Positions 466-35,081 of a stretch of 64,000 nucleotides of DNA are shown here, one piece after another; the stretch's first letter is position 1; every line of letters starts with the position of its first letter. Position numbers and translations under genes: made by a program. This stretch comes from Ignavibacteriales bacterium (GTDB lineage: Bacteria; Bacteroidota; Ignavibacteria; Ignavibacteriales; Melioribacteraceae): contig JAGUYK010000044.1 in the NCBI GenBank assembly GCA_020061355.1, positions 185,658 through 249,657 on the forward strand, given 5' to 3'. Under the pieces are notes generated by a model. The model had not been told where the DNA came from and searched no databases. It saw nothing but the letters and a program-made list of their open reading frames with translations.

Positions 466-1842
466 ATGTTTAATATTGATATAGAACTTATAAAAAAATA
501 CGATCGTCCCGGGCCGAGGTATACAAGTTATCCGACTGCTCCACAGTTCAATGATTCATTTACGCCGGATAAATACTTGGACGAAGTGATCCGTACCAAC
601 AATCACACTAAACCTCCTGATCTTTCATTGTATTTTCATATTCCATTCTGCGATACGCTCTGCTACTTCTGCGGCTGTAATATGATTATCACGCGGAACC
701 GTGATAGAATAAAGGAATATATTAAGTATGTTAAAAATGAGATTGATCTCCTGCGTTCATACATTATTAATGGGCGCAAGGTTGTACAATTGCACTGGGG
801 CGGTGGAACTCCCACTCACCTTAACCCTGATGAGATAAATGACTTAAAATCATATATCAATGCTAACTTCACATTTTCTGCAAGTGCAGAGGAAGGATGC
901 GAAATTGATCCGCGCGGATTAACAAAAGAGCATTTAGAAGCTTTAAGAAACAGCGGATTCAATAGAATCAGCATGGGTGTTCAGGACTTCAACGAAAAAG
1001 TACAGCAAGCGGTTAATAGAATTCAGCCCGAAGATATGACACGTCAAGTCGTCTATTGGGTAAGGGAACTGAACTTCCAGAGTATTAATCTCGATTTAAT
1101 TTATGGACTACCATTCCAATCGGCAGATTCATTTGCCAAAACTGTTGATGCAATAATTGATATTTCGCCTGACCGTATAGCTGTATTCAATTATGCTCAT
1201 GTACCGTGGATGAAAAAGCATATGGCACTTATTAAACCCGAGGATTTGCCTCAGCCGGAAGAGAAACTACAGATACTTAAAATGACAATCGAGAAACTTA
1301 CTTCTGCCGGATACATTTTTATTGGAATGGACCATTTTGCAAAACCGGATGATGAACTGGCAATCGCTTTAAGAGACAAAAAGTTATATCGAAATTTCCA
1401 GGGTTACAGTACACATGCCGGAGCGGATCTGTACGGTTTTGGCATTACAAGCATCAGCCAGATAGGAAAGTGCTACGCTCAAAATGTTAAAAAGGAAAAC
1501 GAATATTTCAAACTTCTTAATAATAATACTTTACCAATTGAACGCGGGTATTATTTAAACGACGACGATTTATTACGCAGACATGTTATTACACGCATAA
1601 TGTGTGATTTTGAATTAGATTTTTTGGAAATCGAAAATAAATTTAAAATTGAATTCGAAAAATATTTCGCTGTTAGTCTAGAAGGATTGAAAGAGTTTTT
1701 TGATGATCAATTAATTTTAATTAAAAACCGGAAATTAATTGTAACACAAATGGGCAGATTGCTGATAAGAAACATTGCAATGTGTTTCGACTGGTATATC
1801 GAACAAAAGGCAGATAAAGCTAAATATTCAAGAACGGTATAA
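466..1842 (+). CDS. hemN: oxygen-independent coproporphyrinogen III dehydrogenase
   Basis: A radical SAM enzyme that oxidatively decarboxylates coproporphyrinogen III to protoporphyrinogen IX without oxygen, in the cytoplasm. The 458-residue length is normal for the family. Residues 11-24 contain the family motif YDRPGPRYTSYPTA. The 4Fe-4S cluster cysteines lie in FCDTLCYFCGC (C62, C66, C69, with C71 as the extra family cysteine), the same spacing as E. coli HemN, and a GGGTP SAM motif follows near residue 112. The C-terminal HemN domain is present, which separates it from HemW. It is the first of five heme genes in the window and ends 1 bp before the convergent ATP-grasp gene. Confidence 0.96.
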   Translation: MFNIDIELIKKYDRPGPRYTSYPTAPQFNDSFTPDKYLDEVIRTNNHTKPPDLSLYFHIPFCDTLCYFCGCNMIITRNRDRIKEYIKYVKNEIDLLRSYIINGRKVVQLHWGGGTPTHLNPDEINDLKSYINANFTFSASAEEGCEIDPRGLTKEHLEALRNSGFNRISMGVQDFNEKVQQAVNRIQPEDMTRQVVYWVRELNFQSINLDLIYGLPFQSADSFAKTVDAIIDISPDRIAVFNYAHVPWMKKHMALIKPEDLPQPEEKLQILKMTIEKLTSAGYIFIGMDHFAKPDDELAIALRDKKLYRNFQGYSTHAGADLYGFGITSISQIGKCYAQNVKKENEYFKLLNNNTLPIERGYYLNDDDLLRRHVITRIMCDFELDFLEIENKFKIEFEKYFAVSLEGLKEFFDDQLILIKNRKLIVTQMGRLLIRNIAMCFDWYIEQKADKAKYSRTV

Positions 1843-34207: not shown

Positions 34208-34529
34208 CTTATGATGCTCCTAAAAAAATGAAAAAATATTAATTTAAAGACGAACAGAGCACCTGCAAATTTTTGTTAATAATTAATCAACAAACTACCA
34301 TTGCTCAAGTTCATGAAAAGGACTTTAGCTTAACACGCATGCCCTTTTACAATGCGTGAAGGATTAGAATTATTCTCATCCTCAAACTTGTAATTATGGT
34401 TCTTAATCAATCTGGCTGGTTTCCTGCAAAATTAAGTCTGTTATGTGAGCGAACTACTAAATGGAAAAACTTCAACTTCAAAAACAGATAAAAAATAATG
34501 CAACAAGTAATGCTAAATATTAATACCTT
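34208..34529 (-). promoter_or_regulatory. long leader/upstream region of the cold-shock gene
   Basis: About 320 bp with no gene. The sequence is very A+T-rich, with a C/G-bearing stretch around 34330-34420. A long structured 5' UTR is usual for cspA-type genes, but no named element (cold box) is recognised, so the leader call is inference. Confidence 0.35.
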
Positions 34530-34559
34530 TTAATTCAATATATATAAGAACCAACTCAA
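34530..34559 (-). pseudogene. GIY-YIG N-terminal remnant (second tandem copy)
   Basis: From TTG 34559 the frame reads M-S-W-F-L-Y-I-L-N-stop, matching the first eight residues of the intact GIY-YIG gene at 34901, with the same ribosome-binding site upstream. It is the truncated end of a 342-bp tandem duplication. Confidence 0.75.
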
Positions 34560-34613
34560 ATTACTCCTGATTTTCCGGAGCTCTTTGCTCCGCGGGTAGG
34601 GCTCGAACCTACA
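34544..34613. repeat. 70-bp perfect direct repeat, left copy
   Basis: Identical to 34886-34955, offset 342 bp. It covers the last part of tRNA-Asn (T arm and acceptor), the tRNA-to-nuclease spacer, and the start of the GIY-YIG frame. About 15 further bp on the left match imperfectly. Confidence 0.95.
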
Positions 34614-34666
34614 TCCCGACTTCGTCGGGATAACAGTCTCATGCTATACTTCGATTTGCCCGCAGA
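34588..34666 (-). pseudogene. degenerate tRNA-Asn copy carrying a palindrome
   Basis: The 3' part (T arm and acceptor, 34588-34613) is identical to tRNA-Asn. The part AGCATGAGACTGTTA matches the anticodon region AGCATGCGGCTGTTA at 13 of 15 positions. The 5' end TCTGCGG can still pair with the acceptor, with one G-U. The anticodon stem and variable loop are replaced by the palindrome at 34613-34631. The 5' end overlaps the final codons of the GIY-YIG gene. Confidence 0.75.
34613..34631. repeat. 19-bp palindrome in a tRNA-Asn remnant (copy 1)
   Basis: ATCCCGAC and GTCGGGAT arms around TTC form a perfect 8-bp hairpin. The same palindrome, with one central base changed, is at 35042-35060 in the other broken tRNA. 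Confidence 0.9.
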
Positions 34667-34901
34667 GTATTTTATTTATCGCTGTTTTACTTTTCCAATC
34701 TTTTATTTTCATTTCTGCACTATGTGCATCAACCCTTGTCTTGTATTCTTTCTTAAATACAATTCTCCATGGTCGGTACCTGGAGGTAAACCCTTTCTCA
34801 ATTGTATTGTGATACTCTAATCTTCTTATTGGATTTTGAGAAATCCCAACGTAAAATTTTTCACATACTTTTGATTTCAATATGTATAAGAACCAACTCA
34901 A
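34644..34901 (-). CDS. GIY-YIG domain endonuclease, tRNA-associated
   Basis: 85 residues from TTG 34901, with AGGAG about 6 bp upstream. It is the minimal GIY-YIG nuclease domain: FLYILKS and KFYVGIS are the two strands with the conserved tyrosines, NPIRRLEYHN follows with the Arg/His pair, and AEMKIKDWKSK carries the catalytic Glu. It starts 29 bp after the tRNA-Asn 3' end, on the same strand. Its last six codons lie in a tRNA-derived sequence. After the TAG the same frame stays open for another 38 codons through the remnant tRNA into the second GIY-YIG start. Such single-domain proteins are often misnamed UvrC-like. The nuclease target is unknown. Confidence 0.85.
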   Translation of the reverse strand: MSWFLYILKSKVCEKFYVGISQNPIRRLEYHNTIEKGFTSRYRPWRIVFKKEYKTRVDAHSAEMKIKDWKSKTAINKILCGQIEV

Positions 34902-34955
34902 ATTACTCCTGATTTTCCGGAGCTCTTTGCTCCGCGGGTAGGGCTCGAACCTACA
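34886..34955. repeat. 70-bp perfect direct repeat, right copy
   Basis: Right-hand partner of 34544-34613, overlapping the 3' end of the intact tRNA-Asn and the first codons of the GIY-YIG gene. Confidence 0.95.
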
Positions 34956-35001
34956 ACCCTGCGGTTAACAGCCGCATGCTCTGCCATTGAGCTACCGCGG
35001 A
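34930..35001 (-). tRNA. tRNA-Asn (anticodon GTT)
   Basis: 72 nt with all four stems perfect: acceptor TCCGCGG/CCGCGGA, D stem GCTC/GAGC, anticodon stem TGCGG/CCGCA around loop CTGTTAA, and T stem GTAGG/CCTAC around TTCGAGC. The discriminator is G and CCA is not encoded. It is the only intact tRNA found in the window. Confidence 0.97.
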
Positions 35002-35030: not shown

Positions 35031-35081
35031 CTGCGGTTAACATCCCGACTTTGTCGGGATCTGCCATTGAGCTACCGCGGA
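35031..35081 (-). pseudogene. truncated tRNA-Asn copy interrupted by a palindrome
   Basis: The 5' half (acceptor strand, D arm to GGCAGA, 35059-35081) and the anticodon 3' part GTTAACCGCAG (35031-35041) match tRNA-Asn. Between them the palindrome at 35042-35060 replaces the GCATGCGGCT segment. The T arm and 3' acceptor are missing. It lies 29 bp upstream of the intact tRNA, same strand. Confidence 0.85.
35042..35060. repeat. 19-bp palindrome in a tRNA-Asn remnant (copy 2)
   Basis: ATCCCGAC and GTCGGGAT arms around TTT, identical to copy 1 (34613-34631) except for one central base. Confidence 0.9.

Follow-up and report, generated by a model that had tools for sequence, protein, structure and literature searches.

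The window, a 64,000-nucleotide stretch from an Ignavibacteriales bacterium, holds a single tRNA gene according to ARAGORN, a tRNA-Asn on the minus strand, and Rfam agrees. A DNA search of the same genome, in which 15 of 38 first-look candidates were scored, returned a single match to tRNA-Asn. Along the minus strand (Table 1), an interrupted 5' fragment of tRNA-Asn (35081-35031) is followed by the intact gene, a 27-bp spacer and an ORF whose PF01541 score of 51.5 bits, against a cut-off of 22.6, places it in the GIY-YIG superfamily. Further along lie a second tRNA-Asn copy (34666-34587) with a palindrome in its middle, the duplicated spacer and the stub of a second GIY-YIG gene. The underlying direct repeat (34523-34617 and 34865-34959) spans 95 bp at a spacing of 342 bp, with 90 of 95 positions identical. 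The preliminary description of this DNA had reported a perfect 70-bp repeat at 34544-34613 and 34886-34955; that repeat is real, and the identical run is one base longer, at 71 bp. When direct copies only are compared, it is the sole exact 40-mer repeat in the window.

Table 1. Features of the tRNA-Asn locus, in window coordinates and in minus-strand order, with the exact repeat last.
Feature	Position	Strand	Basis or remark
Upstream tRNA-Asn 5' fragment (about nt 1-22)	35061-35081	-	blastn 100%; repeat D2
Palindrome atcccgactttgtcgggat within upstream fragment	35042-35060	.	repeat D4
Upstream fragment continued (nt 29-43)	35031-35045	-	blastn 93%
Intact tRNA-Asn, anticodon GTT	34929-35001	-	ARAGORN; Rfam RF00005 68.2 bits
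Spacer from tRNA 3' end to nuclease start, duplicated downstream	34902-34928	-	sequence, repeat D1
GIY-YIG nuclease ORF, 85 aa, TTG start	34644-34901	-	PF01541 E 1.2e-13
Degenerate 5' half of second tRNA-Asn copy, overlapping GIY-YIG 3' end	34632-34666	-	20/35 identical to intact tRNA, by eye
Palindrome atcccgacttcgtcgggat, apparently in place of second tRNA copy's middle	34613-34631	.	hairpin scan
3' part (nt 43-73) of second tRNA-Asn copy	34587-34617	-	blastn, 97% identical
Stub of second GIY-YIG start, 9 codons then stop	34530-34559	-	translation; repeat D1
71-bp exact repeat, distal copy	34543-34613	-	proximal copy 34885-34955

The second copy has the appearance of a complete but degenerate tRNA gene in which the palindrome atcccgacttcgtcgggat has taken the place of the middle; the sequence TCCCGACNNNGTCGGGA occurs at four places genome-wide, two of them at this locus. 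The stop and last codons of the nuclease ORF (CGQIEV) come from the degenerate 5' half of this copy. The palindrome-split tRNA copy, the interrupted fragment upstream and the shortness of the second GIY-YIG stub all go beyond what the preliminary description had noted. At the corresponding place, a relative from the same clade (L095) retains tRNA nt 21-39; its copy is broken after nt 39 and that of the window before nt 43. The window protein belongs to a six-row clade with proteins from genomes G017, G020, G026, G034 and G038 (support 100/99), in which four of the six rows carry a tRNA-Asn label. The locus is probably a partly decayed tandem copy of a mobile nuclease module that is specific for tRNA genes.

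The same arrangement recurs beside many other tRNA genes. Specifically, four of the eight single-domain GIY-YIG genes in this genome lie at tRNAs (Asn, Leu, Ser and Ser), each by a broken copy of that tRNA, and relatives display the pattern at Asn, Ser, Leu, Pro, Asp, Arg, Cys, Lys, Met, Ala and Glu. A phylum-wide set of 180 loci was picked from best-scoring hits and from arrays that had been noticed; 20 duplicate or GIY-less loci were skipped, and one duplicate pair without a tRNA (L019/L104) was kept both here and in the tree. A same-strand tRNA lies within 250 bp at 83 of these loci and is absent from 97, a ratio that represents no frequency because the loci were picked. The adjacent tRNAs cover 17 isotypes, with broken copies at 15 (none at the single Tyr and Phe loci), and 69 of the 83 tRNA-adjacent loci carry an extra fragment of the neighbouring tRNA, leaving 14 without any. 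In the complete GIY-YIG lists of nine chosen genomes, from which 18 hits in frames of at least 500 aa were dropped, 58 of 81 single-domain genes, representing 31 of 53 loci, have a tRNA on the same strand no more than 250 bp away; with 45 tRNA genes assumed in each genome, roughly 0.4% of loci would do so by chance. The other 23 genes lie away from tRNAs, and the genomes differ, with 16/16 genes at tRNAs in G035 and 1/4 in G038.

A test set for the Leu lineage, sought by protein alone, comprised the best 80 of 492 relatives. By their titles, these records come from Bacteroidota, one Neomarinimicrobiota and about a dozen groups classed here as Patescibacteria. Among these best 80 of 492, 74 have a same-strand tRNA within 300 bp and none has a tRNA on the opposite strand only; 71 of the 74 adjacent tRNAs are tRNA-Leu, with five anticodons, and 68 of the 74 loci contain a further fragment of the adjacent tRNA. 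Of the fragment-bearing loci in this best-80 sample, 59/68 show a hairpin at or within 8 nt of the fragment, many being of the CCTGCC..GGCAGG or CCTGTC..GACAGG type. Six of the 80 have no tRNA within 300 bp, among them the Neomarinimicrobiota record. Rfam found no rRNA neighbours in 20 short loci, 19 of which are GIY-YIG loci without a tRNA within 250 bp; on the same 20 loci it reported Flavo-1 in L206 and Acido-Lenti-1 in L140.

Tandem arrays have the general structure tRNA[1..x] + (unit)n + tRNA[x+1..end]. Examples are five full units plus a partial one at tRNA-Leu (450 bp), five units of 315 bp at tRNA-Asp and three of 317 bp at tRNA-Pro, which bears out the earlier proposal that a tRNA fragment and a GIY-YIG gene form a unit able to grow in tandem. 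The first period is 306-474 bp in 23 of 25 tRNA-adjacent arrays, the units are up to 100% identical, and Rfam finds one tRNA per array in all ten loci tested; ARAGORN calls a second tRNA of the same isotype in L103, where it bears a palindrome, and in L192. Copy number varies and many tRNAs have such neighbours, in line with the preliminary description, which would have been contradicted by a fixed copy number together with the absence of nuclease genes beside other tRNAs. It had also raised the possibility of an assembly artefact; arrays occur in the single-contig genomes G024, G035 and G037 as well, so a general artefact is unlikely.

The modules come in two mirror forms. A module after the intact tRNA mostly leaves a 3' broken piece, and a module before it mostly a 5' piece. 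Junctions were sorted with windows that were set after the junctions had been seen (D, after nt 14-25; T, 12-25 nt from the 3' end). In the Leu set, modules before the intact tRNA gave D 55, T 1 and other 28, and modules after it D 6, T 28 and other 28. The first set gave D 14, T 7 and other 14 for modules before the intact tRNA (form B) and D 21, T 59 and other 70 for modules after it (form A); here 84 of 185 junctions fall outside the D and T windows and the two forms split less cleanly. At the tRNA-Asn of G012 (L087/L051), a terminator-like hairpin with a T run stands between the tRNA and the nuclease ATG and is duplicated with the unit; it may keep nuclease expression low.

This anatomy bears on two kinds of conventional element. 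tRNA 3' ends are common attachment sites that integrating elements restore, which would fit an ordinary tRNA-targeting integrative element, or a remnant of one, inserted by a site-specific recombinase. However, a unit of 306-474 bp (23/25 arrays) that is mostly one GIY-YIG ORF is too small for an additional recombinase gene, and both 5' and 3' versions exist. A recombinase-bearing element was set aside on the basis of unit size, and an origin of this type is scarcely credible. A group I intron with a GIY-YIG endonuclease was rejected as well, as no intron RNA was found by Rfam at gathering cut-offs in ten loci, which yielded only tRNAs, or in the window stretch, which yielded the tRNA and one sub-threshold RT-6 hit.

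The direct repeats and near-identical units would fit unequal exchange, and thus a plain tandem duplication followed by decay through unequal crossing-over, in which spare tRNAs erode and the nuclease is a housekeeping protein; locus L063, with two tandem tRNA-Asn genes and no nuclease, resembles such a duplication. Several observations speak against this account. Units that are 100% identical in L070, L071, L072 and L078 already bear the broken fragment and no intact second tRNA, a single Rfam tRNA is present in each of the ten loci tested, and the junctions in tRNA-Asp remnants of eight genomes are identical. In addition, neither same-strand adjacency at 17 isotypes nor the clustering of lineages by tRNA would be expected from it. 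As such, plain duplication appears a poor explanation.

Alternatively, the arrays might serve a host or domesticated function, for example by supplying more tRNA, or more tRNA fragments, to counter tRNA-cutting defences, in the manner of SegB in phage T6. According to the report on that system, SegB amplification raises tRNA-Tyr expression in T6 (PMC13096335), and the nuclease residues of the modules are highly conserved. Against this, the amplified units hold broken fragments with one Rfam tRNA per array (10/10 loci), so that the tRNA dose should not rise, and presence at the same locus, that of tRNA-Leu(CAG), is patchy. A host function is accordingly very improbable. The conservation is high among the tRNA-adjacent proteins, with Y4 present in 73/74, Y15 in 75/75, G17 in 74/75, and R25, H29 and E61 each in 75/75. 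We take Y15, R25, H29 and E61 to be catalytic residues, with the series filling the Y, Y, G, R, H and E roles of the motif.

The preliminary description had further proposed that the 342-bp unit preserves the reading frame and that the translated tRNA forms part of the protein tail. Translation confirms that 342 keeps the second start in frame and that one stop separates it from the GIY-YIG gene. As a mechanism, frame preservation found no support: periods of 311, 316, 317, 323, 350, 380 and 409 also occur, and although multiples of three are in excess among the first periods of tRNA-adjacent arrays (15/25, p 0.009), stops between units are undepleted, with 98 in the nuclease frame against 82 and 103 in the other two. 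Some GIY-YIG C-termini do enter tRNA-derived sequence (the window, L004 and L007), but this looks like a by-product. The tails in L004 and L007 are also translated from inserted hairpins; that of the window lies at 34644-34666.

Which tRNA a module accompanies is reflected in its ancestry. An IQ-TREE analysis of 165 rows (164 distinct) and 76 columns, with many weak forks and an unsettled bootstrap, requires 23 isotype changes among the 75 tRNA-adjacent rows, compared with 48-59 in 200 shuffles. Host family on the same 165-row tree requires 37 changes against 30-40 in shuffles. The module lineages thus follow tRNA isotype and carry no host-family signal, as expected of homing genes, whose lineages track the target over the host. 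The tRNA-adjacent rows lie outside a 69-row clade that has no tRNA label at all, with a separation support of 100/93. This second GIY-YIG clade includes two copies in G019 (C1:206029 and 212480), which score equally and are separated by about 6.5 kb. The isotype clades also contain some rows labelled 'none', several of them at contig ends; in L094, a tRNA-Asn sits just past the 250-bp limit, and a tRNA-Leu lies some 1.6 kb from L079.

Comparison of occupied and empty sites, which the preliminary description had suggested for tRNA-Asn, revealed module-free loci among relatives. In the same-genus genome G001, no module is present at the tRNA-Asn between mcm and msrA; the tRNA-Asn of G019, where mcm, csp and msrA are kept, and that of G010 beside csp and msrA are likewise free of it. 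At tRNA-Leu(CAG) upstream of a squalene/phytoene-synthase-like gene, presumably hpnC, 30 loci divide into 4 occupied, 16 without GIY-YIG and 10 without that tRNA in the stretch. The occupied sites are those of G000, G023, G030 and, partially, G018; the module-free ones include G001, G005 and also L343, in which only 127 bases before the tRNA are visible. Some relatives hence carry the module at a site that is free of it in others, which is again the pattern of a homing gene. Loci L055 and L131, which hold interrupted tRNA fragments without a nuclease gene, would fit decayed sites.

The palindromes form a further layer. Nine tRNA-Asp remnants from eight genomes have both tRNA junctions in common, with palindrome interiors that vary while their pairing is kept. 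Paired cells account for 98.5%, a share that is biased upward because the rows were chosen for having a palindrome, and three pairs have changes on both sides. Covariation is 0.201 compared with 0.050, a level that 0 of 500 shuffles reach, and the number of cells with changes on both sides is likewise higher than in any of the 500 shuffles; two of five measures, pairs changed on both sides (124/500) and further pair types (231/500), are not above shuffles. With loops of 3-6 and stems of at least 6, the elements contain 5.82 hairpins per kb and the DNA around them 0.30, counting overlapping loci twice and with mostly coding DNA outside. Hairpins were scored at 115 of 192 fragments and in 52 of the 83 tRNA-adjacent loci, 31 lacking one by the rule used; a looser rule also scores 24 of 71 intact tRNAs, so these counts include some natural tRNA stems. 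The earlier view of the duplicated tRNA end as a copied target can be made more exact, in that a palindrome often interrupts the broken copy.

The palindromes are not confined to tRNA fragments. The pattern TCCCGAN{3,9}TCGGGA has 24 sites in G000, compared with 1 for the reversed control pattern. By our own count, 8 of the 24 have a tRNA gene or an evident tRNA fragment no more than about 150 bp away, and the other 16 are away from tRNAs or of nearness not established; a strictly tRNA-specific palindrome was rejected on this basis. Two of the 24 sites lie next to the non-tRNA GIY-YIG gene of L003. Conversely, interrupted fragments occur without a nuclease gene in L055, L131 and L227 and in the upstream part of L093. 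In L131 (G000:C12:22700-24800), palindrome-broken tRNA-Arg copies (about 1009-1180, minus strand) stand beside an intact tRNA-Arg (1248-1321), and no GIY-YIG hit was obtained on that contig (G000:C12). In L093 (G038), the region upstream of the intact tRNA-Met contains five 5' fragments of that tRNA, most of them spaced by about 73 bp and bearing palindromes, with no nuclease in the repeat. Since nuclease-free fragments exist and TCCCGA..TCGGGA palindromes are scattered elsewhere, the nuclease and the palindrome may be distinct elements.

Pursued further, this thought leads to an account in which the palindrome is the mobile part, GIY-YIG its mobilising enzyme and tRNA arms its preferred landing sites, nuclease-bearing units being autonomous and palindrome-only fragments non-autonomous. 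The dispersed sites in G000 are compatible with it, as are the nuclease-free, palindrome-bearing fragments at tRNA-Arg (L131, L227), tRNA-Glu (L223) and tRNA-Met (five, L093) and the recurrence of the CCTGCC..GGCAGG type in tRNA-Leu remnants of Bacteroidota and of records classed here as Patescibacteria. Across 118 genomes, a hand count gave 24 with this palindrome type, 18 with the Leu-type nuclease and 14 with both (Fisher 8e-9), although the genomes are non-independent and palindromes within modules were counted too. However, the Leu nuclease (at E 1e-20) is missing from 10 of the 24 genomes with the palindrome, and the palindrome from 4 of the 18 with the nuclease; palindromes also differ between isotype lineages. 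On balance we regard this account as improbable. A broader possibility, somewhat less remote and still doubtful, is that GIY-YIG enzymes and small palindromes make up a minimal mobile system of a new class, for which tRNA genes are permanent homes that restore themselves. Here the nuclease would open a tRNA arm, the unit would be copied in with the palindrome at one end, and the enzyme would spread palindromes elsewhere; if true, this would be the hidden source of the CCTGCC..GGCAGG and TCCCGA..TCGGGA palindromes across Bacteroidota and Patescibacteria.

The available data are most compatible with a model in which a homing-type module inserts into a tRNA gene, restores that gene and amplifies in tandem, and we consider this the likely explanation. 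Of the readings that the preliminary description had offered, it corresponds to the small tRNA-targeting selfish module, which proved the best. A unit would consist of one active-looking GIY-YIG nuclease and one tRNA gene end, usually with a palindrome at the other end, and would sit inside a tRNA gene, often at a D-arm or T-arm junction or, in the lineage of the window, near the anticodon side. The carried tRNA end would complete the interrupted gene, so that one working tRNA remains, and the displaced native end would stay beside the palindrome as a dead fragment. The nuclease may cut uninterrupted tRNA genes, into which repair would copy the module, amounting to homing; the palindrome may prevent recutting of the leftover target, and further units may be added in tandem when the restored tRNA is cut or undergoes unequal exchange. 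Anatomy, recurrence, one Rfam tRNA per array in the ten loci tested, lineage-by-tRNA clustering, module-free sites, near-identity of units and the conserved motif are direct observations, and the precedents of SegB and fungal mitochondrial mORFs, together with the conserved motif residues, speak for homing that restores the gene, with tandem growth through the repair of breaks.

Some features sit less comfortably with this model. I-TevI is a GIY-YIG enzyme with an added DNA-binding domain, and the module proteins appear to comprise about one bare GIY-YIG domain without such an addition to give specificity. Since the intact tRNA in an occupied locus keeps the supposed target, self-cutting must be weak or need flanking sequence. 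One Leu-type nuclease protein had no match in phage or plasmid collections at E 1e-5, so no vehicle was seen. The weakest part concerns the palindrome at dead junctions, which might protect the target, form an end recognised by the enzyme or be a separate lander.

If the model is true, many bacteria harbour in their tRNA genes a nuclease element that is obliged to keep an essential host gene working, with carriers that include the cultured marine genera Dokdonia, Polaribacter, Aquimarina and Psychroflexus. The model would account for the clustering of single-domain GIY-YIG genes with broken tRNA copies and supply a counterpart, on bacterial chromosomes, to the SegB amplification of phages. It would also open to experiment the way in which one bare GIY-YIG domain locates a tRNA gene and the function of small dispersed palindromes. 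Annotation would be affected as well, through tRNA counts and protein tails translated from tRNA sequence, and assembly perhaps too, as several loci end at contig ends. No title or abstract opening found in the openly licensed literature describes chromosomal tRNA-nuclease modules like these.

Four known systems invite comparison. The modules equal UPF0213-type single-domain GIY-YIG proteins in domain size, and the closest solved sequences are SLX1 chains and 1ywl (UPF0213), all weak at E 0.01-0.03. The 69-row clade without tRNA neighbours, which is presumably UPF0213, is separate on the tree (100/93). REP palindromes are mobilised by the RAYT transposase, an HUH/Y1 enzyme, and share with the present elements small dispersed palindromes beside a single-domain nuclease gene; here, in contrast, the enzyme is GIY-YIG in place of HUH/Y1, and the palindromes lie in tRNA fragments and elsewhere. 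Fungal mitochondrial mORFs, for example in Glomus and Allomyces, are described as endonuclease ORFs that bring along a new end for the gene into which they insert, with that gene's own displaced end lying downstream; one of four in Glomus is GIY-YIG and the others are LAGLIDADG (PMC3630166). The present modules likewise combine an endonuclease ORF and a carried gene end with a displaced native end left behind, and a duplicated gene end flanks the ORF, with one copy completing the gene, in 69/83 loci and in 68/74 among the best 80 of 492. Unlike the mORFs of that report, which concern mitochondrial protein genes, they occupy bacterial tRNA genes and occur in 5' and 3' versions, in tandem arrays and with palindromes at many junctions.

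The closest parallel is the phage GIY-YIG enzyme SegB, which according to its report cuts in tRNA genes and is required for segmental tRNA amplification, giving nuclease-dependent tandem copies of tRNA plus segB in phage T6 (PMC13096335). Its preferred motif, RAWTSGAAC (PMC13096335), can be read as the complement of the T-loop GTTCGAATC, and the breaks in L073 and L075 split GTTC^GAATC. As with T-even phage SegB and other free-standing GIY-YIG enzymes, the gene stands beside tRNA genes of many isotypes (PMC13096335, PMC2988022), and tRNA and nuclease gene are amplified together as a tandem segment, by a cleavage that is known for SegB and would be expected here (PMC13096335). Unlike the SegB group, the modules reside in bacterial chromosomes, encode about one bare domain and form lineages tied to tRNA isotypes; their unit carries a tRNA gene end, and the leftover fragment often holds a palindrome.
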